The notes under the pieces were generated by a model. It was not told where the DNA came from. It saw nothing but the letters and a program-made list of their open reading frames with translations, and searched no databases. Below, piece after piece: positions 3,367-61,137 of a stretch of DNA of 64,000 nt (positions are counted from its first letter, which is position 1; the number at the start of each line of letters is the position of its first letter). A program made the translations under genes and the position numbers. This stretch comes from Paralvinella palmiformis (taxonomy: Eukaryota > Annelida > Polychaeta > Terebellida > Alvinellidae). The DNA lies in contig JAODUP010000713.1 of the NCBI GenBank assembly GCA_025642065.1, positions 69,501 through 133,500 of the forward strand, given 5' to 3'.

Positions 3367-6300
3367 ATGGAGTCTGGTTTGGAGAATGTCGAGAACCGAA
3401 CGCAAAGTGAAAATATTGAAGATAAATATTTGATCAAAGATGACGACCTCACCATCGAACAAGAACGGATACTTTCGGGAGCGCAGTTATCGGAAGAGCG
3501 CGAGTTTCGTGATAAAAATGGCACAACAGTCACCGTCACACCCGTGCTTCTGGATTTCAGAAGGATTCTACAGAGCAAGAGTTCCGTGGAAGTGGTGCCG
3601 GGGGTATGCGTGCCTTATTAATTGTATAATGTATTTGTAAGATCGAATCAACTCATTCATATATATGAATATTAATAAAACCATTCCTTAGTAGATTTAT
3701 TCGCAAATTGTGAAATGATTAGTGGGCACTTCGTCTTCCGTCAAACGCCCAACGGTTGAAAGGGCTACTCAGTCTACTGACTACTGTGACCATCATTATA
3801 CCGATTAAACCTTGTCTATTCAGTTTCAAAGTGTATAAATAAAAAGTGGTAATTTGATTGGTGATTCCAATAAGAAGTACACGAGCCATGAGTCTCAATT
3901 AACTGGCTCATTGAATATGATTGATATCTTCCAGATATAATATGAAGTCGTTAAAAAAGTAACTTAGTAATTCTGTGGATGAAAATATAAAATGCTTCAA
4001 AAATTACTTGAGTGGCAGCTAAAAAGAAATTATTTTATGACATGTTTAATTTATTTTAAAAAAAATGAAAACATGTCATGCAGTACTAAAAACAAGCACT
4101 TGAAGCAATGGGTAAAAATATATAAATCAAACTTGGCCGGATTTATTGGTTGCCCCTGACTTTCAAAATAGATAACAAGTACATCTGTGTTTCACGAGAA
4201 ACTGAAATAACAAATAGCTTTGATAAATATATTTTTAAATTGGTAAGACTACTTTTGAAAATGTCCCTAAAACACCAAAATCGGACCATTTGAAAATACC
4301 TCAAATTAACAGTATATTTTTAGAAACTACAGAATCAGATCAAGTTGTCTGAATGACAAATAAATTAAAACCTAAGCTTACTGTAGGTCATAATGAAATA
4401 TCTTCTAAACTATTCAAAGAAACTATTGAATACATTAAATAGCCTTTGATCCATATCATAAATATATTATTTCTTACTGGTATTGTTTCTAATCAACTGA
4501 AAATAGTTTAGGTAATTCTGATACTTAAAACATCTGATCCCATTGAACTTACAAACTGCAGACCCATCAGCCTTCTCCTTGCTTTTTTGAATTTATTTGA
4601 AAGGATAATGTATAACAAGGTAATGTGGTTTTTCAGTGGTAAAAATATTCCTTATAAACATCAATATGGTTTTTGCAACAAACACTCAACAATTCACCCA
4701 ATTATACATTTATTAAATTAATGTGCATTAGGCCATTGTTTTTTGGAATACTTGTTTTACAAGTCCGCCAACCACATCTGAAACTCGCCGCCAGGAAATA
4801 AATTGACTTTTATTCATTTTATTATTATTTTCCCGTCTGCGGCTAACCTTGTTTTTTCCCTTCAAATTGTTTATTTTGACATACAAAATACATAATTTTA
4901 ATGAAAGCAAATGCATACAGAATGTTGAAAAGGAAGATGCTTGAAGCATTGCTTATACAATGCATCCCTCCTTAACTTAACATTAAAAACATTCATGATA
5001 AATTTAAAAATAATGTGGAAGTTTAGCACTCGGAATTTTTCCCCAGTAGCTACTAACCTAAAATATACTCAATTAATTTAGGGGAGAAGTGGGGTGGTTC
5101 GACCACCTTACACTTCAATGGTTTGATCTTAGTATACTCGATACACCAATCGGCAAGAAGTACTTATATGTATATAGTGTAGACTTTTGAAATGTTTACA
5201 TCTATTCGAATTTTGATACAACCACTTTCAGTCACTAATTGTTTTTGGTGGTGTATTAGTGCAAATTGTTTCAAAGTAAACACAAAACAAATATTCAGTG
5301 ATATATTATGTTCCAGCTTAAAACTATTAAGTGTAATAAATAACGAATAGGGTTTTAATGTTGCGGTTGATTCTCCCCACCTGGTCAAGCCTCCCCACTT
5401 CTCCTATATCTTTTTGAAACAACAACAAATCAAAATACTACCTATAACTAGCTATTAGCACAATGGTTTTGGTTACAGCATACATGAAAAAAACTCTTCA
5501 GGCATCGCTCAACAAGTCACTCATTTTGTCTTCCTTGACCCGCACAGTAAACAGCCTTGTGGAGTGGGGCATTGTTAAGTATCACCCCTGCCTACGGTAT
5601 CCATGTGTTTCAGATATTTTTCTTGGAAAAACCTGTCTGGATACTCGAATCTGACAGTTTACAAATCTGGGCCATAAACTTCTGAATTCAACAGTCCGAT
5701 TCACACCAATCGCTACATGGAATGATTGGTTTTGTTGCAGATCGCACATGTGGAATCATGTTCTTACGTTTAAATGTGTTCCAATTTTTGTCGGATTTGC
5801 ATAACTCATATATGGAATATCGGTTGTAAGCTTATTAAAATACGCAGATCAATTTGCAACAGTGCTAGTCTCAACCAATCAACAACAGCGTAAGAATCCA
5901 TTGGAAAGATGGTGACTCATGCTGGTGCTGACAGTGACATGTCTATTGTTTACTTTTCACTGACGGTTAACGACAGAAAGAAAATAATAAAGACCGAAAA
6001 AAGCTAAACTATAGGAGAGATTGTCAAAAAACAATGGCTTTAGCTGATAATTCTTCTCATAAGCAATTTATAGTTTCTGCAATCTCTCAAAATTATTTAA
6101 TGTCATTAAAAGACATGATATTAATTTAATTTAATTACTATGGTATCACCAGGAATTGCCAATCAATGGTTTGCCAGTTATCTTGTAAATAGAAAACAAT
6201 ATGTTCAAATCGGTAAAACAAAGTCTGATGTTAATTTCATAAACTGTGGTGTACCACAATAGTCTATCCTGGTTCTCTTGCTATATTTAATATATGTTAA

Positions 6301-6434
6301 TGACCAGACATGGGGTCAATTCAATTTCCTTTAAAAAAAATAATCCAGAAATTAATATACCATTTTGCAATGCTAACACTTACATGTGGTGTTACCAATA
6401 TACTGGAACCATAATGATCCAGAACTTTGGTTCC

Positions 6435-6487
<53 letters not shown>

Positions 6488-7111
6488 TATGCACACCGAC
6501 TGTGGCACCCCAAGTGAGAATTTTAACCAATTAAAATGGTCTGGATACAGTGGACTCCGCCCCAACACTGTGACGCCACCACACAGCATACCTGTAATCT
6601 ATATAGAGATATTGCTATTTAGAGCTTAGAGGCTGTGCTGATTAAGCGACAGCCTGGGGATTCTCCCCGAACATCAAAACCAAACCAAAGGAATTAATTA
6701 ATTTTTTCATCTCACCGGGAATACCAATCTGGAGCAAAAACTTGCCCTATCTCTGCTAAAACTGTGACTACTATTGCCTGTCCCCAGACCTAACTGTTTT
6801 AATAACCATTTGAGATCTTTTGTAAACTTACCATATGTCAGTGGTTTACCCAGCAGGAGTTGTGAAAGTAATACAGGATCTGACCCCTGCTGGGTGTTAA
6901 GCAAAAACGTTGGTTTCAAAGCTCCTACTGGACAGTGGAATATAAACACATCTTTGATGATTACAAAATATACTCTTACATGGGGTTGTACCCAAGACTA
7001 TGATCCATCACTTGATATAATAAAATATCTTTTTAGCTAAAAGCGCCTTGTGGTTAGGCTTGTGCTATTTTTTACCATGTTAACACTTACATGTGGTGTA
7101 ATAATTTGTTG

Positions 7112-7166
<55 letters not shown>

Positions 7167-7213
7167 CTTGTAGTTTGGGGAGTATCTCCAGGCTGTCGCT
7201 TGTTTGGCACAGC

Positions 7214-7251
<38 letters not shown>

Positions 7252-10200
7252 TGAATGTGGCACCACATGTGAACATTTAACCAATTAAAATGGTCTGAAT
7301 ACCATTGGCTCCACCCAAAACATGACCCCACCACAGAGCATGCCTGTAATCTTTATAGAGATATTGCTATTTAGGAATTTACCCCCGTTCAATGTTTAGA
7401 ACGGGCAAAAAAAATCCACAAATTAATTTACCATTTAATTTTTTAATTCAGAAATATTTCTTCCATAACAATCCTACTTGCAATATAAACTACTCGGAGT
7501 AGGTATTCCAGTAGGTACTCGGAGTACCTACTCATGGTAAAAAGTATTAGGCAAAAAGAGTCAGAAAAAAAGTGGATTTGGGAAAAGTTTAATAAATTTG
7601 AAGTGGAATTGACCAAAGATGGAATTGGAATTGACAAAATGGAATTGACCCCATGTCTGTTAATGACATATAAAAGTTCACAGATACTCATATACTGCCA
7701 TTTGCTGATGACACTTCTTTAGTCATTAGTAATACCAATGTTGCTCCTTTATACCAAAGAGCAAATGTGGAAATGAATATCTTATTTTTAAACGGTTTTG
7801 TGTGAATGGTCTCTAATTAAACAATAAATAAAAAATTGGTAATTTTTAAAGGTGGTACCAAAAATATTCATTTTAGCAACTTGGACATTTCAGTTAATGG
7901 TACTGACATTTGGAGCAAATTGGCTCTCAATTTCAAGAGAAAACCACCAAAGTTCTTGGTGTGATTGTAGATGAATTCCAAATTTATCAATTCCAATTCA
8001 GTTTTTTAAAATAAGCAATTCGGAATTGGATTGCTCATCAATTCAGGAATTGAATTGACCCCAATTTGTCTGGTCTCAGGTTTTATATTGCATAAAGCAG
8101 GTAAAAAAATTGTTATCAAAAGATAATGTAAAATTCTATACAAGGCACTCGTACAAACATATATCTCCTATGGTATTCTAATTCGGGGAAATGCCAATTC
8201 ATCAATCCTCCAGAAAAAGTGTATTTACAAAAAAGAGCTACTGGTATTGAAATTATTAATAATGCTGGTTGTAACAATCATATGAATCCTTTATTCAAAA
8301 ATTTTAAAATCTTCAGATTATGTGACAAGTATGTTTGTTTATGAACTACTTTATTAGTAAACTACTTCTTCATTATTTTGATGAGAAGTTCCATTTCAAT
8401 TCTGATACCGGTATATAGAATGATCACATGACAAGACAATCTAGTCATATGAATGTACCTAGATATAACTCTGCATTATCTAGTAAGTTGCCTTTATTTA
8501 ATTTTCCTATTACGATGAGAATCCGTTAATCCGGACATCATTTATCCAGCAAATCCACCTTCTGACACATTATTTTCTGTGATGGATTTAGCTCCATTAT
8601 AAATGACTCTTTAATCCAACTAAATTGTGTTCCAACTCCGACACTTCATTTCACCAACAGAATGTGACATTTCAAGGTAAAATTACCTCGATAATCTGAC
8701 AACACAAAAATGTTGCCAAATATTTCCACTAGTTCAGTCATGCATTAAACAGACCTGACATGTTGTCAGTAATGGTTAATTAACCCAACCACACATGATA
8801 ATTGCTATATCATAACCAATTACAATCGTCCTTGACCATATACACTGACACACAATGCTTCCATTGCCTGTGGCTATCTCATAGCCAATCTTAATCATTC
8901 ATGGCTAATTATAAACACAAATGTGTGATCTTTCCAATGAGCAGATCATGAGTTAATCTGATGGACTAAGTGACACAAGTATTTCTTTATAATGTCTGTA
9001 ATTAACAAACATCAAAATTATTTGGTCATTTATTGTGTTATAATTGTTGAAAATAAATAAATACACGACAAGTTTATAAGTGTCATTGTGGTTCCAATGG
9101 ATGTTGCATATAATTTTTGTTACATACAAAGGCATGTTTTTATGAACTAAAAATGTTTGACACCGACTACCGGTATGTCACAGGCTTGATATTCTGACAT
9201 TCATATTTATCTGACATATTATCATGTGACAAACCTTGTCGGATTAACAGATTCTCACTGTATCTGAAACAACTGGAATCATACCCTTTCCACTTGTATA
9301 TCAAGATCACAAGCTAAGAAAACACCGAAAAGTTACATCTTATCAATAATATACTCAGCATCTGTAAAATGCAACAACCCTTATTGTAGTCAGTGTATAC
9401 ACTATAGTTAAGCATCTGATTCCTTGGTATCTGGTTATCATATTTCCATATTTATCATTGATACATGACAAGGCTTGCGAATACAATAACAGTTAACTAA
9501 TTTTTTATGAAGATATCATAACATCAATATATATTAATATTATGGACTTCAGAAAGAAATAATATGGAAACTTATTCTCAGTTCACCTCAAGGTGAGTTT
9601 CTAAGTTTCCATTTTCCACATTATTAATTCATATATGTGCTGAATCCTATTTGATTGTACATAAACTTATTTTACAAGTGACTACAGTCATACAATACAT
9701 GCTGCATTAAAATTCTGTCCATGAAGTTAGAAGGAAGATAGCGGATCCTGCATATGACTTTTTTTCATGTTTATTGTTTACAAAAATAGCCATTAATTAC
9801 ATTTATGGGCATAACATATATATCTGTTATTCTATATACAATTTTTAAATGTTCAAAGACTATAATGTAGTCTTTGAACAATTAAGATTATATTATAATC
9901 TTAATTCTATTTCCTCTATTTGGCATATTTTTGTGATATACATTACAGTGATGAATACTTTATAATGTAATCGCAGATATAATTGATTACAATTATTATT
10001 AAGATAACAGATTACTAAAATCCTGTAATTGCTCTAATTCTGTCATTAGCACGGGGGTTTATTTCTTCATCTAGGTCTCAATTACAAGATACGCCTTTAT
10101 GAGCAGTTGAATCTATCCACAATCATAATATAAACAAACCCGCCCTATATACTGAATTTTATTTTTTGGTAAATTTGCAGGGATCCCAGTTTGGAAAAAG

Positions 10201-13200
10201 TTATAATGGTAAAATTATACTATATTAATTATTATGACTAAATTTAAGTAATAAAAATTAATCGAAGCATACCTACTTATATTCCACTATTCAACCCTGT
10301 GTGTTTGTGTGTGAGGGAGAAAGAGAGGGAGGAAAAAACAGGAAATGTTCAATTTAATTTCTTTCCAGTGGGCCTTTGATTTAAATAGTTATTGTTCTAA
10401 AAATGGGATGTGACAAAAAATAAAAATAAATGCTTTGATATTGGTTTTCTGCCAAACTTGCAGGTTCCAAATGAAGAATTACTGCACTCGGTTATAGGTC
10501 TGTACAACACTTCTCTGAGTGAAATGACGCCTGATGTTCTCTATACCTCTGTTTGTGATAAACGAGCCAGGACAATTATTCTGCTTCAAAGTGTTGCAGG
10601 TAAAAAGCATTATGCCATTCCTTCCTAATGTTGACTTCATATATCATTCTGGCCTATGACATTTTTCTGTTATTGTATTATTTCTTAATTATGTTTGCCA
10701 GTTTAGTTCTTCGGTTGTACTATATTTATACCATTGATATTGTTTAGACGCTGTGGGTGAATATAATGCAAGAAAGAAAGATGCAACGGATGGAAATGGA
10801 GAAAACCCTAGTTTAGATGAGGATAAAGAAGATAGTTATACAGTTGAGGGATCTACGCCGGGATTCTTTGCGGGTGTCTTCAGTGATCAGGATACAGGCT
10901 ATTCAGAAAGGTTACATTATTAATGTATTTAAGGAGATACATATTGTTTATATCTAAGTCTGTATAAAAAATAGGGTTATCTTTATTTAATCATGAAAAT
11001 ATACACGGTATATGTTATGGATAGAGAATGTTTCCTTGTTTTTTCAAAAAGAAACTCTAAAAAGGAAAGTGGCATTTGAAGAGGAATTTGTCTTTTTGAA
11101 ATGGAAAATACCGCATTCAAACAGAATTTGTCATATTTTTAAAAACAGAATTTGTCTTATTTTTAAACAATACAAGTTATAATGGCACTGATAGTTGCCT
11201 TACCTACCCAATGCTGTATTAGCTATGCTGAATTTTACTGTGATAGAAGTGGTTCTGACATATGGAATTATATTAGCATTATATTAGCATTATATTCAGT
11301 CTCCAGTTGATCTGTAGGTTGTGGGCTATCTGAGACCTATAATATTGTTTGAACATTTTGTAACCTCTAATACAAGGTTCAATATGCTGCATACCACTAT
11401 GTAATTATATTAAATAGTGCCTTAAAATGGCCAATATTATTTAAAAAATGAAACATTTCTTAGACCCCACAGTCCTGCACCAAATCTCCAGCTAGATTTG
11501 TGCACCACTTGCGATTCCCTGTTTGAAAATTTCAGCTATATTTTCCAAGTCCACTTTAATCCCTGGTTATTAAATACCAAAAATAATTGTACTTTCAAAT
11601 CTATCAACTGAAATAAAAAAATGTATTAATTGCTAATTGTACAAATTATTAGGACTAGCTTTGGATTAATTCATTATTGTTTGAAGGTAGATTTAGACCA
11701 AGATTTAGACACAATGGCTTTCAATCTATAAATGATGAAATATTTGAAGCAACAAAGGTATTTTGTAAATTCAAATGAAATGCTGCAAGTTCTCCTCAAT
11801 ATGATAATATTATCAAATGCATAAATAAGAGGCTATAATTATCAATTATAGTAAAATTGAAGCTAACCACATGTTTAACAAAGGCTATTTGTGCATGTCC
11901 AGTGTGCCTCAATAGTCTAGTTGGTAGTGTGTTGGACCACAGATCACTACCATGTGAGTTAAAATCTTGGCATGGGCATATCTGAAGGGTGTTTCATCTT
12001 TTGTTTCACTTCATTACCTTTGGAGATCACTCGGCTCATTAATAGCCTAACATGTGCACAAAAGTAGCCATGAAACATTAATCATCATCTTTTGCATGTC
12101 CAAAGTATTCATGAGTAATCTTTAATGTGAATACATAATTTAACCCCATACTTGACTATTATCCACAAAATAGTTTCCTGCAGTTGGTGACACATCACTT
12201 GGATTATTTTATGCATTGCATTACTATGTGTACAGAAGTATTTGTTTTCATTAAATGGTTATCAACATTTGTTTTATAAAATGATACCTTAATTGTAAGA
12301 TATAAAAATAATTAATTTCTCAGACATTGAAACAAGCAGGATTTAAATATATGAATTATATGAACTAATAACTGGAAATAATTAATTTTTTTATTTATGG
12401 TATGTGAATTATTTGTTAATTTTCAAATTTTCTAAAACAATTACATTTTATTTCTATATTGCTAGAAGACATTATTATTCACACATATATACACATACAT
12501 GTGTGTGTGTGTGTGTACATATATACGTAGTACTAAAATTTGTGAAACTAGATGTGAGACATTTTAAATGCTGTCCATGCACAATTTTTCATGGTAAGTA
12601 TCATATGCTATTCTAATGTTATGCATTATCTTGAATGAAATATTTGATCATGGTGGCTGCAAAGATATTGGAAGCATTTTAGCAAGCAAACCAAATCTTG
12701 ATTAATCTAAATTTATATTCGTATCTTATTATATCTATAACATTACAACATTATATGTTCAATTTCCCCCCCCCCCATTTTGTGTCAAGAAGCCAAGTTA
12801 TTGCACGTCAGTAATCAAAACATTATAAAGCCTGACATCTGCCAGTACTTCTTACTCACAGCTTAATTGTTATTACAGCTTCCATTCAGACATGTGGAAC
12901 ATTACAGTAATATTAGGGAGAAACTAAAGTCTGAACTACAAGATGACTGATCAAATATTGATGAAGCTTATTAAGTACATTTATAATCCAGTGGCACACT
13001 TTGTGATATTTTACTGAATTCTAATGTATAATCCAATTATTTATGATAACCAGAGTTTAGTCAGGATGCAAGCAATCTTCTTAAAAAACTTAGGATAATA
13101 ATTGTTTGGAAATTCTCAGCAGTTACCTAAAGTTATGCTAAATAAAGTGGATAATTTACAGCATCAGTTAAAAGGAACATACATACATTTATGTTTTGTA

Positions 13201-16200
13201 TCATAATTTATTAATAATAACATCATCCAAAATGCGTATCCACAGTTCACTATGGATTTAAGAACTAAACATTTATCTGTTATAAAAATATCTGTGGCCA
13301 AATAATGATGAAAACTTATAAGTACGTTTATTGTCTTTGTTGGAAATTGGTATGGTAGGATGTGATTTGAATCCTCAAATCCTAAAGTAAAGGGAAACTG
13401 GGAATTAATATTTTTAGTGTGTAATTTATCATAGAAGGATTAAATCATCTGGATTTCCCTCATTGATATATCCAGCAACAATAATAACTGACATTCATAT
13501 TATTATTATTATTAACATTAATCAATGTTTGGTTAAAAAAGAAATTAATTGCAGCAAAAATTAGTATGATTCATATGGCTTCCTCAAGACCCTGGAATTA
13601 ATTTTGATAAAAAATATCCATAAAAATGTCCTTAAATTTTTAGAAAATATTTGTCATTGAAAGCCTGAATGGAATTAGATTATTTTTCTGGAAAACTTAC
13701 CCATTTTGCATAAAATAGATGATAGAGATGGGCAGTATTTACTTAACATAGTTGTGTATATGGACATTCCCATAGTACAGTGGTTATGGGAATGTATAGC
13801 ATTGCACTATACAACTTCAGATCTGGCTTTTAACAAAATCCTGTCAGCTTCTTAACTGAGGAATTGTCCCCAGGGCTCTGTACTATTTATGTGGTCGTAA
13901 AACATCAATCAATCATCTATGTTATTGATGTGGTCAGCACCAAGGTCTAAACAAACTACTAAATCATTTGCTAACTGACTCAATCAGAATTGTTTGTTGA
14001 ATTGTAGTGAGGAAGATGGTGAGGATGACAGCGAAGAGGAAGATGATTATTCACGGGGTGTTAGAACATTCTTGAGGAATGCCCACAGGAGGCGTCATGA
14101 CATAAATTCAGCTAAGGAGCCTCTGACTATGAAACATATAGGCATTGAACACAGGATAGTTGGAGTTGCAACATATGAAAAGACCTACTGGTAGATTGAA
14201 AGATGGTCATTTGTTTGGTTTTTAAAACTTTTTTTAGAAAACAGATTTAAGGAAAAATATGAAAAAAAAAGAATCACAAATTCCAATTGTTTTAAAAATT
14301 TCAAAAAAAAAACCCAATAATTTTCAGAAAAAACCTATTAATTTTCAATATTTTAGTGATTGCTTACAAATTTATTAAAGCTTTCTTTTAACTTATTTAA
14401 AACCATTCAGTTTGACACTGATCATTTCATCTCTCTCTTTCTACACCAGCAAGCCAGGAGAGAAAATAATTCATCTCACACTGATAACAGTGAGAAAGAA
14501 GTTTAGAAAAGCTGGAATTGGCAAATACCTGCTCTTTGTAAGCATTACAACAGCCTATGGTCATTATGTGACTGTACGCATGTTTATTATGAGTGTTTTA
14601 TAATTATATCACTTAAGCAATTCTGCATCATTAATTCATAAGTAAATCTCAAATACTATTAAGACAAAGAGTTATCCCACTAAAAATGAAATACCTGAAG
14701 AGGCTGTTGCAGGTGCAGTTCTGTTTTATTATAGATGTCATTTCTCGTGTTGTGTTTTGTTTCTAGCAAATAAGAGACATGTCCATTGTAGGACACTACG
14801 ATGCTGTAGTCGTCCATGCCGATAATTCTGCCTTGGAATTCTTCCAGCGATATGGCTTCACTGATGACATCATACTCAACAGCAGATGGAGGTTTGTAAT
14901 TAATGCATCATTGTTTGTGGTGCTTATTAATCATGGAAGAAGAGATGCTGTTGGTATTTGGGCAGTTCCCTTTACAATAACAGTACTTCCATATCTTACA
15001 AAAGTAGGATGTTAGAGCTTTACACCATACAAAAAAAAATAAACAGGTCAATGGAAACCCATTTATGTGTTAAAGATTGGTTTTATAGCCTGACTATTTG
15101 TTACTACTACTAGTACTAGGTGGCAGACTCTAAAGAAAGCACCAAGAGCTGAAACCTCAACCTTCTTTTGTTATATGTAACAAATTTATTGCTATATATA
15201 TTTTAATTTACATTTCAAATTCAAGATAAATTAATTAAAACGATGTCTAATTAGAAAGTGTTAAGAATATTCTGCTATTTTGTGTGAGTCTGTGTGTGGT
15301 GTCATTCTTAGTATTATTCCAAATGTATTATGCCGGTAGCACCTTTTCCTCACATTTATGGTTTACAAATATACAGAATATATATAAAATATTATTAATG
15401 AGCCAACAAGATTTGGTATTAAAAATTGAAACATCTGACAGAAATATATCTCATTTTCAGTGACTTAGCCGAACAATATACGAACTGCACATTGATGTGT
15501 TACTTGCCACCATTTACTAGTAAGTTATAAAAGACATTATGGACCTCTTTTTTAGTGTACTCCACAACATTATGTGCCACTTGAGGTCTGATTGTTGTAA
15601 ACAAATGATGGTTAAAAGTAGGGGCTTTTGGATTTTAAAATTTGATTAGCAAAGGGTTTTCAAAAATTTTTTTAATTTTAGTAGGATTTTTCATTTTAAT
15701 TTCTTTAAAAGACAACCCATCCAAGAATAGAACTAAACAGTTACCATTCAGTCATTCACTTTTATTTTACATTTAATATATATTATTCCATGTCATTTTA
15801 ACATTTTAAGTTTATATGTCTTGTATTGTAAAGTACTTTTGAATATGATATAGTTTATGAAAAGAGTGCTATATAAATATGGTATATAATAATAATAATA
15901 ATAATCTGTGAACAAAAGTAAATTTGAATATGAGAAAAAACTAATGAAAGAAATATTTCCTAAAAGATAATACCTTAAGATAGGTTTAAAAAAAATACAT
16001 TTGATGGCTTGATTTTCACAGATATAATAAAATTAGAAAAAATTATGATTACAGTGACTGTCCTGTATTTTTTCTAATTATCTTTCATGTTCTTCTATCA
16101 TAAAAATCACCAAGGAATTTATCGTTTTCCATAGAAATTTTTCTTTAATATTTATGATTGTTATACAGATAAAATCCTCTCAGATCATTCCATACCAGAA

Positions 16201-17967
16201 CTGGACATTATTGCGATGGATAATGAAATCAAGAAATGGTTAGTTTTGCAGATTTTGTGTCAATTTGATTAAAAATGTACTGATATAATTTGAAATTAAT
16301 GTTTGTGGAAAACAGCATTGAGATTTGATGATGTTGAGACTGTTGTTGATCAACCTATGTTTTTTCTTGCAAGTAACGATAAACAATAACATAATGTTTA
16401 TGGTATCCTTTGAAAAGTTTAGGCTATACAAGATGATGGTCGTATTTTATCATGGTGCATCATTTTGTGTTATTTTGTTTTGTAGGAGAGAAAAAAGTTT
16501 GGAAGCTTACAGATCTGAGATAACATGTGTGAGCAGGATGCGGCATGAGGTTGTACATCTCAGGGCACTAGTTAGTTCCCAGCAAGATCTAATTACCATC
16601 CTTACTGAAAACAATGAAAAGTTGAGACATGAGAAATTTTTAATTGGTAATTATTTTCTCAAAATATACATACTTCAGCACCATTTTTGTTAAAATAATT
16701 ATTATATAATAGCTCTAGTACACCATTAATGTTTTGTGAGTTAATCTGAAAGACAGAAAAATTAAGCAGGAGAGAGTATGATTGATATGGACTAAATGCG
16801 ATCATTTGGAACAAATATGTGCATTTGAGCAGAAACACACCTTTATTATACAAAAATGATTTCAGATGGAAATGACGATAGATGGAAAATTAAAGATTTA
16901 TTTAATGATTATGTTAATAATAATAATAATAATACCTTTTGAACAACCAGATTTGTCATCTTATCAGTAGCTGAGTCACTACTAGTCTAACTAGACCTGC
17001 TAACAGTAGTTAAATATTAGACTCTGATATTGTGCATTGCAGAGAAGGAATTCCTCGAATATCGATTAACCACAACAAAAGAAGCTTTTACCACAGGATA
17101 CTCAGATGGTTAGTATTGCTGATGCTGAACTAAAAGTTTGTTCAGTGAATCTTGTTTACTGTAGATGTGTTATTTTGTTGTTGGCATTTTTTTGCAGCTG
17201 GCAGAACCAAAACCAATTCATGGGTTTTATGTTTTGCGGTATTAGCAAGTCTGAAAATATTTTTTTGTGATAATTTGATAAATATAATTCAAGTTTCTTC
17301 CCAACAATCATAAATGCTTGACTCAACATCTGGTGAATATAAAGACAAGCATTAAATTAACATTTATATTCAACTGCCACTGGAGCCTAACATGGCCTAA
17401 CATTATGCAAGATGCCCTCTATAATGGCCCTTCTGTAACTTGACCGAAACCTAGAGTCTCTGACCCATTCATGACCCCTACCAGGAACAATTTGGCAATT
17501 TGCAGAAGCTAACAGTGTTGTATTCTGCATTTGATTAACTAACACAGGTTGGCAAATGCGTGACCAAGCAAAACACTTACCCATATGGATTACAATTTAG
17601 TTTCAGTATTAATTGCTGCATTGTCATAGCATCAGCTATTGGCATGTTTAAAGTCAACAGGATGATTTGAACCTGTTATCTTAAGATAGGTTCTTAATTT
17701 TGATCTCAGAACAGGTATTCAGGACCTGTCTTATTTTTGATACCATTAAACTGCTGGTATACTAAGTGCAATGGTGACTGTAAGGCTGCATATAAACATT
17801 TGTGCAAGAGAACTGAATTTATATGAATCTAGATTTGAATATTAATTGCTGTGAATTTAAATGGAATCTCAATGTGGAACCATTTTAATGCCTAAATATG
17901 GCTAAGTTCCGTCATTTGATAGATGACACTGTTATGCTCCAAAACACATGTACACCATTCACACACC

Positions 17968-18005
<38 letters not shown>

Positions 18006-19485
18006 ATTGTGCAAATATTTACAATTCAGTCACTGTGATAAAATTTACAGGTACGTGCACTATATTTACCTTGTTAAATGAAAAATATCAGCATTTACAA
18101 AGAAGTTTAGCAATGCCATAATACCAACAAGAATCCCATTTTGGATCATGGCATCTTTGTCTATTGCCACATTAGGATGGCTATATTGTCTGGAATTAAT
18201 ACTCATGAAATGGTTTTGGCAGTGCTGACCACAAAATGACAACCCACAGATAATAATATATTTATAGTAATACTTATTAACTAGGTAGCTTATTTTACTT
18301 GGGAAAGGAGGGTGGTTATGTAATGCAGCAAATTTCTAGTTTATTAAGCCATTGGCTGGACCTTTCATTGTAATCATGTCATAACTTTAAAGGGATAGTC
18401 GACCTTCATTTCAAATTTTCAGGACTAATACAGCTATACTCACAAATATCATACATAATGTCAAAATGTGTAAATGATCACCCACATATTAAATAATCCA
18501 GTTCAAAGTGCTGATTAATCGACTTTTAATGGTCTGTGGGCACCGCCATTTTGACGTCACTTCAGCATATCCGGTTGACTTGAAGTCTGTAGAGCCTGTA
18601 CAATAGCATGTAAAGTGTGAGCAAAGAATTATTCCAGAAATAAATGGCATTCCATCATGAATGATATACAACCATATCAGTTTGAGCCAGAAGGAACCTT
18701 ACAGGAAGAAGATGATTCAGAATGACTCAGAAATTAATGCTCAAGAGAAACTATAATCTGCGTCAGTCCAGAGTGCCCGTGTGATGTCAGAGCATTTCAA
18801 TTTTAGCATTCACACCTTCAAATCTTGTTTCCGGTGCAGTTGTATTGTTGGCCCTCCACTAATTTAGATTATTTCCCATATCTATGATATCAGATATAAT
18901 TCATGATTATTATTGTGGAATTTTTGGTTACTGTTCTAAGCATTACATATTTTTTAAATGTTTTCTGAAGGTGGACTCTTCCTTTAAGTAGGCTCTGAAT
19001 GAACAATGAACACTATTGCTTTTATAGGCATAACCTTTCAATGTGTAAAATTATAATTCAGTATGTGTGTGTGTGTGTGTGTTACATGTGAATATTTATG
19101 AATATTTACTTACAGATGATGATGAAATCCCAGGTGAAAAATTGATTAGGGAACTTGAGAGAGAAGTCAGTAGGACCAAATTAACTTTGTCCACTTCACG
19201 TAAAAAAGGTAACCCTCTCAATGTTACAGAAACAGTTCTTATTCATCTTAAGTTAAAATCTTGATGTAAACCTGATGTCATTTAAGAATCTTAACTTATA
19301 TTGAGTTTACAATAATTTGTTATCCTTTTTACACTACTTACCACAATGGCCTGTAAATCTATTATCAGTAGCACAAATGATTTTTATTCTGTTTGAATAA
19401 TCATTAAATATCTTCTATTTTATCTGCAAATATTTCTAAATATTTGTAATGAGAAGTCAGGGAAAAATAAAACAGACTTATAAAA

Positions 19486-19518
<33 letters not shown>

Positions 19519-19520
19519 CT

Positions 19521-19564
<44 letters not shown>

Positions 19565-22500
19565 ATAGTATCAATTTAATAAATGAGACTTATGGTATGT
19601 TCAAAAGAAGGTTTTCCAATAGTACAATTGATGACACACAGAAAATCTCTAGGATAAGTTTTTAGATCCAAGAGTGATCTATGTCTGTGGGATGTTTTAT
19701 CTGATAATTTCACTTCCCTTGGAGAGCTTCTTCTCTAGACCATGTGTACAAGATCATGCAAAACATTTTAAATCAATGTCTAAACTCATCAACATTAGAA
19801 ATATTATAGCAAACCTTATACAATATATTTTAATAAAAAGTAATGATCCTTTCCTAGTCATAGTCAACTATCTAGGACCTGTCCAATGTACATGACCAGT
19901 GTGTTAGAATTACTCCTGCGCAGTGTTAGATTTTTCATGTTAGTATGATAAACTGATTGCCTGCTGCAATTATTTAGTAAAACTGTAGGTTAATTGTATT
20001 TTTGGACTGAAATGGCAAGAAATACAAATGAAAGTAATTCATTTACATCCAAAATGGCTACTGTTGATCCATTGACAAAACAAACGAATATGCCTATGTT
20101 TTGGCCATAGTTGGTGATAAATAAAAATGTACTAAAATTTTGAAAATTGTATTTTGTTGATATATTATAAATTACTTATATCTGAAAAGGTGGGAAAATG
20201 TAACATCACAAAAATTAAGTATACAGTTGGCAACAATAAAGATTTTCACAATTGTTGTGGTGGTGAAAGCCTTAATATGCACTTCTTACAATTCCAGATG
20301 TTAACTAATTAGGCTATATAAGTTTATTTTGTATATAATTATTTTAAAATAATATTTTATTCACTGTTTCCTTATATCTGGGAAATTGATATAGATTAGT
20401 GGAGAACAATTTTAGAATGAACTTTTTTCAGATATTCACAAAGTTGGTAGATAATAATAATGTATATTTAATAAAGCACCCTTACTAGCAAGAACCATTT
20501 AATGGTGCTCTACAGGGATATCCCAAATAGCTTGTATGTAAGAACCTAATAAGAGATTTGAATGATAATCATTATTTACCATAAAGATGATAAAAGCAAC
20601 TTTGAAAATGTGAGTTTTCAGAACAGGTAATAAACCTGTCAAGAGATGATGGATTTCTAATGTCCACCATAAAGTACGACTGGACCACTAAATTCACAAT
20701 CGTCATACGACTCGAGTTGAGACCCCAGTGCCTGAAATAATATCTGACTGGATGACCGGTGATTTCAGGATGACTTCGAATGTTTGATTGATTCTTTATC
20801 ACTAATAGGTGAACCCAATTATTTGCTGAATCAGGGATCAGCAGATGAACCATACGATCATGGTAAAGATACACAAGAATTTTATAAAGTAACTCATGAT
20901 TTTGATGAAGCCTTGAAAGTGGACAACCTACAAACGAGCCAGTATCAGGTGCAGATGGTTTCCAAGGTAGGTTTCTGTCTCAGAATATGAGACTGAAATA
21001 TATTCCTTGACATGTTTTTTCTTCTAATGTAGTACACCAACTTTGGTTTGGATAAATATTTACTTTTCAGATGTTACATATATTCTATAATTCTTCATCT
21101 GCCTCCCAGTTTTCATGCAGAACAATAATTAATTTATAACTAATGTAGATGTGTGCTTCTTTCATTTTCTATTTTCAGGCCATATTACCAGCCAGTTACA
21201 CTGAGAGTTATAGATCCAGATTGTCATCTTTAAATGATCCAACCTTTGTCACCCGTCTTTACTTCTGTGGCAGCCTCAAGAAGCCTGATCGATTGCCTGA
21301 GATATTGCATAATGGTTTTTCGGAACAAGGTTTGTTGTGAAACATTTCCCACAGGCATATACATCTAATTATATTATTGCACTAGATAAAGTACTCACTC
21401 TTGAGTTGGGGAACTTGAGTTCAGTTCCAGTCAGAGAGTTAACATCTTTCAGACCAGTTCAGAGATTAATTCCTTTGTTCATAACATCACAGTTGGTTTA
21501 TCATGTAAATAGTACTATCATCTGACCTAAATTAAAACGTCAGGTACTTTCTGATGGTGCAAAATGCTCAATACATTTATTAATCTCCTATGAGTGACTG
21601 GGAAAATGTAGTGTCAGCTATTTATCAGATAAGAACCATACTGAAAATAAGTGCTTATACTTTCTGATGTAATCCCCATTTTCTAAAGATAGATGAAAAG
21701 AACATTCGGTTAAATAAATCTTATTTACCAGTCAAATCTTTGCACTCTAATGTACGGGCATACTTTATGTCACTCCCCAGATATGATCCATGGTGAATAT
21801 GGTCGAGGGTTATACTTCTCCAAATATCCTTTAAAGGCAGCACTTTACGCACCAGTAAGTATAATATAAACCAAACCATGGTCAATTTGCTGCACACTGA
21901 ACACCAGATTACAGATCCACTTCTGTTAAAATGCTCTATGTACATTTCCCAGGTTTGCATGAAGAACGGGAATCTGATTTTTAATTGTATCAATATTATC
22001 TCTGCAGCTTGGCTCGCTCATACTAACCGAGGTGGCATTGGGAACAACAGAAACAGTAGTCACAAAAGACAGGGCGCGGACATCACCCTCCAAATACTCT
22101 GATTCAATTATTGTAAGAAACAGCAAGATTTGATTATTATTCGTTATTTTATGTTTAAAAATGCTAGTGCTACTGAATTAAATGCTGGTGCTTCTGAATT
22201 AAATTTTTTATCTGAAATTCGCTGACATAGATTATTGGCCACCAAATATTTGACTGATTTTCTTGGGCTCAATAGTTGATAGAATCTTGAATGAATAGCT
22301 ATCTCAACATAGTGAATTGCTGTGGACTACACAGTTCTAGCTGGCAGGAAGAATTAGAAATATCCACCAGTGTCATATTAAGATGACAAAAAAATTAAAG
22401 AATGATAATTAATCAATCACTAATGACCATTCCCATTTTACAGATGCCATATCAATTCAGTGATGAGACTAATTCTCACAGTAAAATCTAATTTCAGACA

Positions 22501-22662
22501 CCGGGGAGGCATTGTTCAGACGATGATGATCAGCTGCTTTGTCAGGAGTATGTTGTATTTGATATCTACCAGACACTACCTCTGTATCTGATCTCCTACT
22601 CACCAACTGAATCTCGTACAGTGCCGCAGTCACCCAGCAGTGCCAAACCCAAGTCTCTGTGA
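3367..22662 (+). CDS. GNAT acetyltransferase / PARP-like ADP-ribosyltransferase fusion protein (16 exons, 677 aa)
   Basis: Coding exons: 3367-3603, 10464-10599, 10748-10910, 14008-14190, 14450-14537, 14767-14891, 15461-15519, 16169-16238, 16486-16646, 17043-17108, 19116-19208, 20809-20966, 21179-21329, 21781-21854, 22008-22112, 22498-22662. All introns are GT-AG, phases agree throughout, and the sum is 2034 nt. Residues 1-215 are unrecognised and become acidic (SEEDGEDDSEEEDD). Residues about 219-330 look like a GNAT domain: an HLTLITV strand, the acetyl-CoA pyrophosphate loop RKAGIG (259-264) and a motif-B-like ALEFFQRYGF ending at F300. Residues about 350-460 are predicted coiled coil (LRALVSSQQDL, NNEKLRHEK). 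Residues about 535-660 resemble a PARP catalytic domain: RLYFCGSLKK (Cys543 at the usual His), YGRGLYFS (Tyr575) and QEYVVFD (Glu640). From family knowledge this would pair protein or small-molecule acetylation with ADP-ribosylation; substrates and activity are unknown. The in-frame ATG at 3367 is the first in the exon. I recognise the domains, not the gene. Confidence 0.8.
5081..5404. mobile_element. Miniature inverted-repeat element with TA target duplication
   Basis: The 324-bp element is flanked by TA at 5079-5080 and 5405-5406. Its ends are imperfect inverted repeats: GGGGAGAAGTGGGGTGG on the left and, read inward from the right, GGAGAAGTGGGGAGG. A TA target fits Tc1/mariner-type transposition. 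A similar motif (AGGGGAGATATGCCC, GTGGGGTGGGGAG) at 26163-26200 may be a fragment of a relative. It has no coding capacity. Confidence 0.55.
6305..7659. mobile_element. Non-autonomous hAT-type element, copy 1, with nested repeat DNA
   Basis: The ends are perfect 18-bp inverted repeats: CAGACATGGGGTCAATTC at 6305 and its complement ending at 7659. An exact 8-bp target duplication TTAATGAC (6297-6304 and 7660-7667) flanks it. Eight-base duplications and CA-starting ends fit the hAT superfamily. It sits inside the LINE: the host RT frame continues across the duplicated site (YVND, then a segment leading to FADD). The right part shares a 37-bp block, containing a perfect 21-nt palindrome at about 7511-7531, with copy 2 at 32476-32747. 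The interior (about 6375-7372) is a composite of two near-identical ~140-bp blocks, two inverted copies of a ~42-bp sequence (6640 and 7175) and three (TA)n tracts, probably from a later insertion. Confidence 0.85.
8513..9260. mobile_element. Non-autonomous pogo/Tigger-like DNA transposon, copy 1
   Basis: The 748-bp element is bounded by TA on both sides (8511-8512 and 9261-9262). The right end, read inward, is CAGTGAGAATCTGTTAATCC and the left end is CGATGAGAATCCGTTAATCC. Such CAGT...AATCCG termini with TA targets are typical of pogo/Tigger elements. A second copy in the opposite orientation lies at 59737-60355 and aligns along nearly its whole length. I see no transposase frame. Confidence 0.75.
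9851..9906. repeat. Two adjacent near-perfect hairpins
   Basis: 9851-9879 is a perfect 12-bp stem (GTTCAAAGACTA) with a 5-nt loop. It is followed directly by 9880-9906, a nearly perfect palindrome starting AATTAAGATTATA. Together they could extrude as a double cruciform. They lie in the first intron of the GNAT-PARP gene, 590 bases after the Tigger-like element and outside its ends. Confidence 0.6.
10748..12950 (+). CDS. Alternative 3' end of the GNAT-PARP gene (predicted 224-aa short isoform)
   Basis: After the exon 10748-10910 (phase 2) two further exons can be read in frame. The first is 11691-11757, ending at a GTATTT donor. The second is 12879-12950, preceded by TATTACAG and ending in TGA, with a polyadenylation signal AATAAA at 13141. 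They add RFRPRFRHNGF and then LPFRHVEHYSN to the shared N-terminus, giving 675 nt or 224 residues with neither the GNAT nor the PARP domain. The exon at 14008 also needs a phase-2 donor and would open with TGA if joined to 11757. So the long form must skip both these exons. The two outcomes look mutually exclusive. Coding-like composition and correct splice sites support the exons, but transcription is not shown. Alternatively they could be two overlapping genes. Confidence 0.5.
11901..12090 (+). mobile_element. tRNA-derived SINE, family A, plus strand
   Basis: A tRNA-like head (box A region AGTCTAGTTGGTAGTG, decayed box B GAGTTAAAATCT) is followed by a body ending GTGCACAAAAGTAGCC and AATCATCATC. 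The sequence aligns over its full ~185 bp with the minus-strand copies at 28943-29094 and 34161-34340. It lies in an intron of the GNAT-PARP gene between the two short-isoform exons. Confidence 0.75.
13141..13146 (+). terminator. Polyadenylation signal for the short isoform
   Basis: AATAAA lies 191 bases after the TGA at 12948-12950 and inside the intron of the long form. Confidence 0.4.
13745..13920 (+). mobile_element. Probable SINE
   Basis: A tRNA-like segment (AGTACAGTGGTTATGGGAAT) is followed by a body ending in GTGGTCGTAAAACATCAATC, a tail type common in tRNA-derived SINEs. No second full copy is certain in the window, although a similar tail occurs near 24412-24433. Confidence 0.4.
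17969..18004. repeat. (TA)n microsatellite
   Basis: An alternating TA tract with one interruption, inside an intron of the GNAT-PARP gene. Comparable intronic (TA)n tracts lie at about 6437-6482, 7117-7163, 7217-7243 and 19488-19561. Confidence 0.9.
18391..18983. mobile_element. TTAA-flanked miniature element, copy 1 (piggyBac-type MITE)
   Basis: This 593-bp segment lies between TTAA at 18387-18390 and TTAA at 18984-18987. The ends are inverted repeats: AGGGATAGTCGACCTTCA on the left and, read inward, AGGAAGAGTCCACCTTCA on the right. A TTAA target is the signature of piggyBac-like transposition. A second, shorter member lies at 27864-28192 in a BTF3 intron. No coding capacity is visible. Confidence 0.75.
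20560..20775. repeat. Unclassified dispersed repeat, copy 1
   Basis: This segment matches 52693-52860 in the same orientation. Shared landmarks in the same order are GAGTTTT(T/C)AGAACAG, a CACTAAAT stretch, GTCATA(T/C)GACT(T/C)GAG and TGGATGACC. It lies directly upstream of the GNAT-PARP exon at 20809. I cannot assign it to a family. Confidence 0.5.
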
Positions 22663-30200: not shown

Positions 30201-33200
30201 ATAACAAGGCAAGTTTTAAACTGATATATTAGGAAAAGGTATGAAAAATAATAAAAATAAGTTTATATAAAAAACGGAAAGAAAATAATCATATTTCTAT
30301 ACTAATAACAACTTATCTATCTAACTAAAGTGAATGTGAACACTACTACTATTACTACTCAAATCTAATCTAACCAACTGCTAACACTACAATGTTTTCT
30401 CTTCCTTGCTGGTGCTGAGCTGGCTTTCTGCAGGTCATCATCGTATGTGTAGTCGGACATGTAGTGGTATCAGTGAAAACAAGGCACAGGACACATTCTC
30501 ACTTTACAAACACCACATGCATATAAAGTGTCCACTCTTCTTGTGTGAACAGCACACTTTAATTGGGTTTCATGTTTTATTAAAGAATGTTCAAGTTCCC
30601 GGTTGAGACGAATGTCTGTTGCTGGTCGTGAACTGGAAGCATGATGTTTGCGAATAAATGAGCGCCCAGCAACCAACCCATCAATCAGTTCAAGGAAGAA
30701 CCCAAACTGGTTGTTGCTCTTTCCAGGATTCATCTCTTTGTGTAGGAGGTAAGCCTGCACACCAGATAACTGCAATATGTGAAAGAACACCTGCAAATAC
30801 CATGTCAGCGATTTCATGTGACGACGATATGAGGACACCGGTGATTTGCCAAACCACACCCCCCATGAAACTGTTATACAGCTCAATGGCACTTGGCTTA
30901 TTGATAATTATCAGGGCACCTTTTCTGTCTCTTCTTCTGACAGCACCATCACCCAAATAGCCAGGAACATTACATAATACATTAACAGCATACGTCCTTT
31001 CATTCTTTTCAGACTGTCACCACGCTTGAGGCTTTTTACAACTGCACAGGTCTTCTTTGCATCCTTTGGCAGTCCTAATCTGTTTTGAGTTACAGTGCCC
31101 CAGCTCAGGGTGTTTTGCTCCTCTAATTTTGTCATCAGTTCGATGCTGGTATAATAATTATCAGTGAAAAACCGATGTCCTTTGTTCAAATAATGTTTAC
31201 CAACATCAAGAACTATTTGTGTTGTTTTAGAGACAGCAGTCTTCACACGTTTACCAACATAAGGGAGTAAGTTTAACACATAGCCAGTGTGTGATTCCAC
31301 AATCGTGAACAGTTTGATCCCATTTGACAGGCTTCGATTTTATGTATTGTTTGATACCCAACCGCCCCTTGAATTTCAACATTGTTTCATCAATGGACAA
31401 TTCTCGTCTTGGATGATAGGCAGCCCTAAAACGCTTGTTGATGTAGTCCAAGATATTCTGCACTTTCCACAATTTATTTTCCTTGTTGATGGATGAATCT
31501 TCATTGTTGACGAAGTGCAGATATCTCAAAATCTGAAGGAATCTGTTCCTGGGCATGGTTACGCTGAATCCAGGAGTCTGCGTCAGATTATGTGTCGACC
31601 AGTATTCACCCAAACGTCCCTGTTTTTGTACAAGTCCCATCGTCAATAACAGACCCAACCAGGTCTTCAGTTCAGGAACTGTCACTTCATACCACTCGGA
31701 ATGTTTTCTTCCTTTTTTAGGCTCCTGTTGACGACACTGACCAGCATATCGGTTGGTTTCCCCAACAATTAGACGGAACAAGTAGTCTGTGAAGAATATT
31801 CCGAACAGTTGTTCCGCATACATTTTACTGCAATCTTCAGCATTGTCAACACCAACACTAGCTTCGTTAATAAACGGAATGTCTGGATAATCTGTCAGAT
31901 TATCCGTCCAGTCACATTCATGTGGCGCTACAGGCATTGTTTCATCATCCGAACTACTGTCACCGCTTTCGCTATTAGATCTATCCAGGTCGGAGATCGA
32001 AAAATCATCGTCACTTTCTCTATCAAAGGCCCGTCGACGATCCTGCACCAGTTTCTCAGCTATTTTTACATCAAACGAGTCAAAACCCCCAAATTCTTCT
32101 TCACTATCCGTATCGAACGCAAAATCAAATGACAGATCACTCGTGCTGGTTGATGCGGCCGTTTTGATACTTACGGAACAGTAAAAAATCGTAACGGGTG
32201 CAATTAAAAATTCACGAAACCAACACAATACAAAACATTGACTAAAGATGGCTGACAATTTTACACTGCACATGCAAGCCTCTTTCTGGAAAAAAAATGT
32301 CCGCGTTTGCTAGAACGCTGATTGGACCGTATTTATTAAGCAAATGAGGGATACATATATATACGTATACGGGCCGCAATGACATTTAAGGGTAGTATGT
32401 ATATATATGTGTTCGGGTCTGAATGGATTAACTGGAAGTTAACCTAAAGATGCTCAACCCCTTCAATACATGGGCCAGACATGGGGTCAATTCAATGCCT
32501 GAATTGATGGTCAATTCCAAAATTGGAATTAATTATTTAAATCCTACAAACAAATCAAATTATCTTTTTTTTCCAAATATTAATTTACCTTATTTCTCAC
32601 ATGACAATCTAACTTGGACTACTTACCCCAAGTAGCTTATATTCCAAGTAGGTACTCGGAGTACCTACTCATGGTAAAAAGTAGTATGTAAAAAAAGGAA
32701 CTGGAATTGATGCATTTGATTCAGCATTGGAATTGAACCCATGTCTGACATGGGATATTATTTACTGCCAGTTTTTTAAGGTACTCTATAGTTTCTTGTC
32801 ATCTGTTGTTGCTCTTCTGTGAATAACTTTCTTATTAGTTAAACATTCAGGGTTTACAAAAGAAGTAAACTGACACGATCAGTAACCACTATTTTAACCA
32901 GACAAATATTAACTGATGAGGTTAAGTTATGGATGGGTTACTACAAAGACAAATCTTATCTTAATAGTTAAATTTTACAGGCCATAACAAAAATTCAGTC
33001 CTACTGTAGAGAACATGATCTTAGAAAGCATTTGAAAAAGTCAAAATTTTAAATGTTTCCCAGTGGAAAAGTCACTGAACACAAAAAAAGTATACGAATG
33101 ACCATAATTTAATTTCTGACTCAAAACCTTCTCATATCTTTCAAATATATTCAATGTAGCCATGATCAGTCCTGTTGAGCTTGAATACATACATGGTGTA

Positions 33201-40400: not shown

Positions 40401-42396
40401 TCCTATCAAGACTACTGTTCTCAACCTTGTAACACAACTGCCAGGATTTTCGGAATTTGCAAATCAGCCAGAAAGAAAAATTAAATTTATCGGTTCTTCT
40501 CATGATCGTACTCGGACATGGTTTTGCATTTTTTTAACCAGTCATAGTTAATATTGTCCAGTTTTATGATATGAGACGGCTAATAGTCAATCTATAATCT
40601 ATAAAATATGATATATGCAGGGGCTTTTATATTTCATTACCATTCATGATTTTTTTCTACCAGCTGTCCTAAATTTTTCTATTTTTATCCATTTCATTTG
40701 GTTGGCACCAAAAGCCTCATTATAATATTCATAATCCTTTGAGAGGTACTAATTAATTTATAGGTTTCAGTGCTGCTTTGTGGTGATTTATATCATCCAT
40801 ACATTTCAGGGCCGACAAATTTGGTGAGACAGCAGATGAGTGTGCCGATGCATATTTTTACTACGGAAAGTCGTTGCTTGAACTCTCTAGGATAGAAAGT
40901 GGTGTCCTTGGCAATGCGTTACAAGGCAGTAAGTTACTTGGTTTGGTATTAATATGTGGTTTACAACAACAGGATAGCACCTAAAAAAAGTACGGTCCCA
41001 TTTTATAGGCACTTGGACCATAATCGTCTGGGCTTAGAACATCTGTTGGGTTCCGGGGAGGGGTAAGTGCCTTTCTGAGTGAGTATGTAGTGAACGGGCA
41101 AATAATTGTGGCTTTTTTACACTGAAAAGCATGGTGCCGATCAAAGGCAGATTGTTTACTGGGCTTTTTTGTTTTTGTTAGTTGAGGAAGATGAAGCAGA
41201 GGAGAAGTCGGATGAGAAGTCATCCACAGATATAGTTGAAAAAGATGATCTGACAGGTAATTGCCTATCTTGTGATGGTGGAAGAAGTACCATCATAGTT
41301 TTTACCACTGAGCTGGATCAGTAAGACAGAAATTTACTGTTCTGCCTTTTGATTTACTGCTTCTCCAATGAACCCAATTAAACAAATTGTCTGATCAGTC
41401 ATTATTTGATGAAGAATAATCATGGTTCATGCTTTAGACATGGATGGTGTCTGGAAAGAGGATACGTTTAAATTTGAAATAATGCTACGCACATTTACTA
41501 GCCCAAGAAAATATTTGGTTATGCAGGGACAGAACTATCTACCATCCTGCTATTACTAGTCTTTTCATAAGCTTCTGGCTCATATGAGCATCTTACACCC
41601 TTGTGCATCCTAATGTGTGATGGTTGTGATTTTTCCCTGCATGTGCTTCCTGTGTTTGAATGATTGACTGCTTGCTTTTCGTTGCCTTAGAATGTTATCT
41701 GCAGTTGTTTTTCCTTGGTGATTGATAGATGGCTTTGTTTTCGTGTCGGTGTGAAGAAGCTATGAATTAATCACCAGTGATGACATTGATTTGTGTGCTT
41801 AACAATTGAATAGTACAATCTTCGATCACTGGATATTAATAACAAGACGTACTTGAGTCACTGTTACCATGCTTCAAGTAATTGAAGGGACAACAGTGGA
41901 TGTGATCATTGTAATTTCTTATGTGATTGTGTACTCCACTTTGTTAACCATACATGGAACAAGGACGTTGTTCGGGTGAGATCTGACCAGGTGGTCCATA
42001 CTCTCCGATACCAACACGTGCCATGACTACTATTGAAACTTCCCTATTCCAGTTGAAGAGAAGGAGAAAATTAGCGATGAGATTATCGATGCCATGCTTG
42101 AAACGGATGAGGAAGTAAAGGCTCGTCTTGAGAAGGAAAAGGAAATCAGTGGGAAAGTTGAAGACAAAAAAGTGACCAGTCAGGGGGACAAGGATCTTGT
42201 AAAAGATAAAAAAGATGGAAATGAAGATGTTAGCATGGAAAACGATGACAAGAAAGGTTAGAATGAAAGTTGCTTGTCCTAACATTGTCCTGTGTACTAG
42301 AGGGTGTGTTGAAAAATGTTTGTAGATTTGAATGATTTTCCTCTAGTTTGATGTGTATCACATAGTTCATAAAATGTTAGTTGTTTATTTTAAAAG

Positions 42397-42438
<42 letters not shown>

Positions 42439-60810: not shown

Positions 60811-61137
60811 GTACAGCGACATCCTAACATCTTGATGGTTGGCTGTACTTGCCATCTCATGCATTTAGCAGCAAGTAGAGGAGTTTCTAAGGTGTAGGAG
60901 AATCTTAATGTAACTGTGAAGGATACTCTGATCAGAATATATTATTATTTTGACGAGTCTTCAAATGGAAAAGGAGGATCCGTTAGGTCCGTTAGGATCC
61001 GGATAGAAACCCCACAAGATACTGAAGCTGATTTCAACGAGGTGGCTGGAACTCACTCAGTTACTGGAGCAATCGGAACCCCTTTTTTGGATGAATTCCT
61101 TTCTATGCTTAATTTAGATCTGGCAGATACTCTTTGA
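60742..61137 (+). pseudogene. hAT-type transposase fragment
   Basis: The + strand reads MVSFAADNANVIAGMKRG, then NILMVGCTCHLMHLAASRG, a TAG stop at 60895-60897, and LIRIYYYFDESSNGKGG further on. The pattern D-N-x-N-V-x-x-G, C-x-C-H-x-x-H-L-A and YYF-x-x-SS is the catalytic core neighbourhood of hAT/DUF4371-like transposases. The frame runs on into the tandem repeat at 61062. N- and C-terminal parts are absent. Confidence 0.75.

Follow-up and report, generated by a model that had tools for sequence, protein, structure and literature searches.

A GCN5-type GNAT domain and a PARP-like domain with an altered triad in one animal protein family, represented in Paralvinella palmiformis

The stretch of DNA analysed here (hereafter the window) comprises 64,000 nucleotides of the annelid Paralvinella palmiformis (assembly GCA_025642065.1, contig JAODUP010000713.1, positions 69,501 to 133,500) and contains, at 3367..22662 of the forward strand, a gene for a protein joining a GNAT acetyltransferase domain, a coiled coil and a PARP-like ADP-ribosyltransferase (ART) domain. 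The 16 exons and 677-residue product proposed in a preliminary description of the locus were borne out, as the exons join in a single frame with zero internal stops and consistent phases. All 15 introns have GT...AG borders, the longest being the first (~6.9 kb), the third (3.1 kb) and the eleventh (1.6 kb). The exons encode the following features:

3367..3603, + strand: exon 1, start codon, disordered N-terminus and, from about residue 45, the first strands of the split GNAT domain
10464..10599, + strand: exon 2, phase 0; helices and strand of the GNAT N-lobe
10748..10910, + strand: exon 3, end of the N-lobe and acidic insert
14008..14190, + strand: exon 4, remaining acidic insert, helix 192-213 and GNAT strand 229-239
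14450..14537, + strand: exon 5, acetyl-coenzyme A (acetyl-CoA) loop RKAGIG (14505-14522) and His248, at the GCN5 catalytic Glu position (14472-14474)
14767..14891, + strand: exon 6, GNAT segment VVVHADNSALEFFQRYGFTDD
15461..15519, + strand: exon 7, GCN5-like end of the GNAT domain (NCTLMCYLPPF)
16169-16238, 16486-16646 and 17043-17108, + strand: exons 8-10, coiled-coil helix, about 16195-17095
19116..19208, + strand: exon 11, linker and short helix
20809..20966, + strand: exon 12, in which the ART fold begins at about 20859
21179..21329, + strand: exon 13, opening at a phase-0 intron; LYFCGS motif with Cys543, at the PARP His position (21266-21268)
21781..21854, + strand: exon 14, GRGLYFSKYPLKAALY with Tyr575, the triad Tyr (21813-21815)
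22008..22112, + strand: exon 15, ART strands
22498..22662, + strand: exon 16, QEYVVFD with Glu640, the triad Glu (22546-22548), and stop

Two further stretches with AG and GT borders (10181-10208 and 11687-11757) were considered as exons and dropped, as inclusion of both introduced many stops into the joined frame. The exon choice without them agrees with an independent annotation of the Paralvinella gene (LSH36_713g01000, here P0001), the 689-residue product of which matches all 677 residues and carries 12 extra ones between residues 269 and 270, arising from an alternative intron-5 donor 36 bp downstream. The intron-5 donor of the 677-residue model scores 3.9 and the P0001 alternative 1.9, both lower than any of the 14 remaining donors (5.1 to 10.3); as the donor score was built from these 14, their own values are flattered. 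Relatives were collected in three protein searches, which gave a family set of 93 proteins in total and a 65-row alignment. As the alternative donor is the weaker one and the insert is absent from the 64 other rows of this alignment, the 677-residue form is likelier to be the main product, and the longer form may be a minor isoform.

The motifs listed in the preliminary description were recovered in the joined product at residues 259-264 (RKAGIG), 573-577 (GLYFS) and 639-645 (QEYVVFD), and a profile search placed both Pfam families above their cut-offs. The product matches PF13673 (GNAT; E 2.3e-9, 37.7 bits against a cut-off of 23.6) and PF00644 (PARP; E 7.5e-10, 39.1 bits against 26.7), and PF00644 also matches 55 of the 65 family members at E up to 0.01. 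No Pfam family besides these two, including bromodomain, WGR and BRCT domains, was found in the 677-residue product at E up to 1. Searched as a single sequence against solved structures, the whole protein gave GCN5 at E 1.7e-4 and PARP chains at E 0.58 or worse, which is weaker than the Pfam match, and the C-terminal piece alone gave PARP10 at E 4.9e-4. In a structure comparison of the full-length model the first match list consisted entirely of PARP chains, and the predicted fold of the C-terminal half is a PARP-type ART close to those of PARP4 and tankyrase. The GNAT half was modelled separately on a relative (P0041) and not on the Paralvinella protein; the predicted structure has a GCN5-type fold across the whole domain. 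A GNAT domain is thus present as originally described, but it had been drawn too small: the model places its first strands and helices N-terminal of the acidic stretch, which makes it a split GCN5-type fold. An ordinary small GNAT, the reading considered before these structure-based comparisons, was replaced accordingly. In the region of the proposed coiled coil, the single-chain model predicts one uninterrupted helix of ~85 residues (P0001 residues 352-437), which probably acts as a coiled coil tethering a dimer. That a single gene encodes a single protein in the order GNAT - coiled coil - PARP-like is supported by the joined frame, the identical annotation and many unrelated genomes, and we regard this architecture as practically certain.

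The protein searches keep relatives that share short words, and the distribution described below is that among the matches listed. In 61 of the 65 rows the alignment covers the GNAT loop as well as the ART motif. By Pfam or alignment, both domains are present in Paralvinella, a brachiopod, a nemertean, many molluscs, starfish, sea urchins, sea cucumbers and stony corals and, among vertebrates, in sharks, a chimaera, the coelacanth, salamanders, a caecilian and frogs; in the vertebrate rows Pfam often detects one domain, the second resting on the alignment. The same domain order, sought in related genomes as the preliminary description had advised, therefore extends from Cnidaria to Bilateria. 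Relatives in so many animal groups rule out a lineage-specific oddity and, judged by sequence, the gene belongs to an old animal family spanning both groups. Spiders, a mite and a horseshoe crab have a GNAT without PARP, as do a sponge and a lung fluke. Several short models from molluscs, a nemertean and annelids (e.g. P0032, P0040, P0049 and P0052) likewise show no PARP match, and we regard them as incomplete or erroneous predictions. The matches listed include no row from a mammal, bird, insect or nematode, which does not establish absence from these groups.

A tree of 36 of the 93 proteins (27 with PARP, 7 without and 2 uncounted), built by a quick method with support from the Shimodaira-Hasegawa-like approximate likelihood-ratio test (SH-aLRT) only and an uninformative midpoint root, requires three changes of PARP presence, two of which are forced by well-supported branches. 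Loss of PARP in chelicerates looks like one event on this tree. Long branches make the placement of the fluke, sponge and mite rows uncertain, and sponges may either never have gained the PARP half or have lost it. Pairwise distances of the GNAT and PARP domains are correlated over 59 rows (0.87, a value reached by 0 of 2000 shuffles), and by this measure both domains evolved together. Five relatives (P0015, P0018, P0020, P0071 and P0087) have proteins of 596 to 703 amino acids and longest source sequences of 2140 to 2876 bases; these sources appear to be spliced transcripts, which would put both halves on one mRNA there. Database names of the members are mostly 'uncharacterized', 'hypothetical' or transferred, and the elephant shark member bears the zebrafish-style clone name si:dkeyp-50b9.1, which was not found in the literature searched. 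One sturgeon model (P0081, Acipenser ruthenus, 1012 amino acids) combines a TINF2_N domain and an aminotransferase piece with the family GNAT and coiled coil, lacks PARP, and is probably a merger of neighbouring genes.

The LYFCGS motif aligns onto the HGT/HGS motif of PARP10 and tankyrase, so that Cys543 occupies the position of the triad His. Among the 61 rows with an ART domain this position is Cys in 56, Ala in two and Val, Gly or Ser in one each, and His in none. Tyr575 and Glu640 are each kept in 58 of these rows, and the complete C-Y-E triad is found in 54. The position of PARP1 Ser904, a nicotinamide contact, is Ala in 61/61 rows, and that of PARP1 Tyr907 is Phe in 48/61. Cys, Tyr and Ala occupy these positions in all four rows labelled as corals, and Glu is present in the three that extend to its position; P0087, a coral-like row, is also C-Y-E. 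These shared residues suggest that the C-Y-E/Ala pocket was probably set before the coral-bilaterian split; P0088, which reads C-Y-K, and the sea urchin P0085, which stops short, count against such early fixation. Cys was lost in scattered members, namely the sea slugs P0031 and P0038 (both Ala), the frogs P0067 (Gly) and P0069 (Ser) and Dimorphilus P0050 (Val), in which the ART end is shortened and decayed, and the pocket therefore seems to be drifting in some lineages.

A phase-0 intron precedes residue 514 and lies 29 codons 5' of the Cys543 codon. All but two human PARP genes have a phase-0 intron shortly 5' of the His codon according to PMC1266365, and the single matching phase is weak evidence consistent with descent from a PARP gene.

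Across the GNAT halves the acetyl-CoA loop is retained, and RKAGIG of the Paralvinella protein fits the R/Q-x-x-G-x-G/A pattern. The GNAT core is the best conserved of seven regions compared, and in VVVHADNSALEFFQRYGFTDD the residues A, D, A, F and F are invariant in 65/65 rows. The position of the GCN5 catalytic Glu (E122 of Tetrahymena GCN5) is occupied by His248 in the Paralvinella protein and varies over the 65 rows (His 37, Gln 12, Glu 7, Lys 4, Tyr 3, Asp 1, gap 1).

The window contains four other features:

30911-32309, - strand: two overlapping open frames matching PF13843 (DDE_Tnp_1_7; E 4.8e-39 and 7.4e-21)
42381-42953, + strand: 190-residue open frame, Lys/Asp-rich repeats over 39-bp tandem repeats
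58672-59292, + strand: 206-residue open frame, NDPEDVGN repeats followed by Gly/Trp/Gln/His-rich repeats (GGQWGGQPHQWGGHWG)
61061-61516: tandem array, six copies of a 75-bp unit, 91 percent matches

The split of the PF13843 match over two overlapping frames points to an interrupted transposase copy, presumably of piggyBac type; the next frame downstream (30470-30907) has no Pfam match, nor has the 190-residue frame. The 206-residue frame has a Pfam match below cut-off only, and its product could be a structural secreted protein.

We consider the best explanation of the whole, with a probability of about 0.45, to be that the GNAT half is regulated or targeted through an ART-like ligand pocket joined to it by the coiled coil. 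The GNAT half would bind acetyl-CoA via the R-x-x-G-x-G loop and acetylate a protein, with a chemistry departing from that of GCN5, since the Glu that serves GCN5 as general base is not conserved. As judged by its residues, the ART half probably does not work as an ordinary ADP-ribosyltransferase, since Cys in place of His, Ala in place of Ser904 and the published losses of activity upon change of the His make ordinary ADP-ribosyl transfer unlikely. The retained Tyr and Glu suggest that the pocket still binds something; a modified partner, ADP-ribose or nicotinamide adenine dinucleotide (NAD+) could be its ligand, and the coiled coil would convey control by the ART half to the GNAT half. The gene, its domains and their conservation are observed and the folds predicted, whereas GNAT and ART activity, the ligand, the dimer and the regulation are what we infer here, and this mechanism is offered as a tentative one.

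Several points weigh against a GNAT half governed by an ART-like pocket. Retention of Tyr and Glu in 58/61 rows each would be odd for a domain without NAD-linked chemistry. Nine human PARPs are classed as mono-ARTs despite lacking the triad Glu (PMC7955679), which makes triads poor predictors of activity. Plant PARP3, from which part of the argument is drawn, is an inexact match as it also lacks the Tyr, and restoration of H-Y-E failed to revive its activity. The GCN5 Glu position is altered in most rows, and the GNAT half could thus itself be inactive. Furthermore, the PARP half seems dispensable in chelicerates and a fluke, in which a PARP-less GNAT persists.

The preliminary description envisaged both activities in one chain; both domains stand, but the ART domain lacks the triad His and the GNAT domain the GCN5-type Glu. 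A bifunctional enzyme, in which the GNAT half acetylates and the ART half ADP-ribosylates with Cys replacing His, perhaps on a shared substrate, would account for the retention of triad Tyr and Glu, the near-fixed Cys from corals to frogs and an ART fold close to PARP4 and tankyrase. We nevertheless consider it unlikely, given that plant PARP3 with its His-to-Cys change is inactive (PMC6701155), that His-to-Ala strongly cuts PARP1 activity (cited in PMC7955679) and that the Ser904 position is uniformly Ala. Conversely, neither half might be catalytic, the protein serving as a dimeric scaffold with both pockets binding ligands or partners. The variable GCN5 Glu position (Glu in 7/65 rows) and the altered ART site fit such a double pseudoenzyme, whereas the retained CoA loop and the conservation of the GNAT core do not, and many GNATs rely on general bases other than a GCN5-type Glu; we regard this alternative, too, as improbable. 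That two adjacent genes were fused in the gene model is scarcely credible: there are several long introns (~6.9 kb, 3.1 kb and 1.6 kb), but the domain order is identical in many unrelated genomes, the 596 to 703 amino acid proteins of five relatives look transcript-derived, phases are consistent throughout, and GNAT and PARP distances run parallel.

Regulation of the GNAT half through the ART-like pocket could, in its most specific form, make the protein a single-chain metabolic coincidence detector: acetylation of a protein of the nucleus or cytoskeleton would require NAD+ or an ADP-ribose ligand in the ART pocket, which bears a thiol in place of the His. This version is a long shot; if true, one molecule would read acetyl-CoA and NAD+ status and would have been kept since before the coral-bilaterian split.

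The folds are known, the triad is unusual, and the pairing is undescribed in animals in the literature searched; member proteins are already in databases, many with both domains marked, and are unnamed. To our knowledge, no other animal PARP subfamily is joined to a histone-acetyltransferase-like domain. Should the family prove to be what it resembles, it constitutes a PARP subfamily of animals that has been overlooked and has a distinct C-Y-E triad; it would offer a natural test of the role of the PARP His and a direct route to establishing whether signals carried by acetyl-CoA and NAD+ can converge on a single chain. A genuine absence from mammals would explain the lack of earlier attention. 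Sea urchins, the axolotl and corals are laboratory-tractable animals with two-domain members. A GNAT-PARP fusion was not described in the literature searched, mainly titles and abstract openings among the matches listed, and in the main text available to us of two surveys of PARP evolution (PMC2964712, PMC4245714) neither 'acetyltransferase' nor 'GNAT' occurs. The earlier statement that no characterised protein is known to carry both activities in one chain thus holds for animals within that literature, but has a partial precedent in phage ART/GNAT proteins (PMC7824862).

Among known systems, the acetyltransferase domain of GCN5/PCAF (KAT2) is closest to the GNAT half, the family differing in the mostly replaced catalytic Glu and the lack of a bromodomain. 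The acetyltransferase domain of the kinetoplastid kinetochore protein KKT23 is comparable in a different lineage, and we know of no ART domain in it. The closest counterparts of the ART half are the ART domains of PARP4 and tankyrase, from which the family differs in Cys for the triad His, Ala for Ser904 and mostly Phe for Tyr907. Human PARP9 and PARP13 have Q-Y-T and Y-Y-V triads, with Glu lost, and no GNAT domain. These two PARP-fold domains likewise lack the His; PARP13 is listed as inactive and PARP9 is said to require a partner (PMC7955679). Outside animals, the nearest precedent is provided by the large multidomain polyvalent proteins injected by certain phages, which are stated to carry both ART and GNAT domains (PMC7824862), perhaps within one chain, and are likened here by description only. 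Land-plant PARP3 shares with the family the His-to-Cys replacement in motif 1 (C-G-S) and the kept Glu, and has Val for Tyr except in moss (PMC2964712); unlike the family, it is confined in this comparison to land plants and has a BRCT-WGR-HD-PARP architecture without GNAT. Arabidopsis PARP3 (C-V-E) is inactive and does not bind NAD+, PARP1 changed to C-V-E is inactive yet binds NAD+, and PARP3 restored to H-Y-E regains NAD+ binding and not activity (PMC6701155), in line with the strong loss of activity upon change of the His in PARP1 (as cited in PMC7955679). The His-to-Cys changes of plant PARP3 and of the animal family are taken to have arisen independently.

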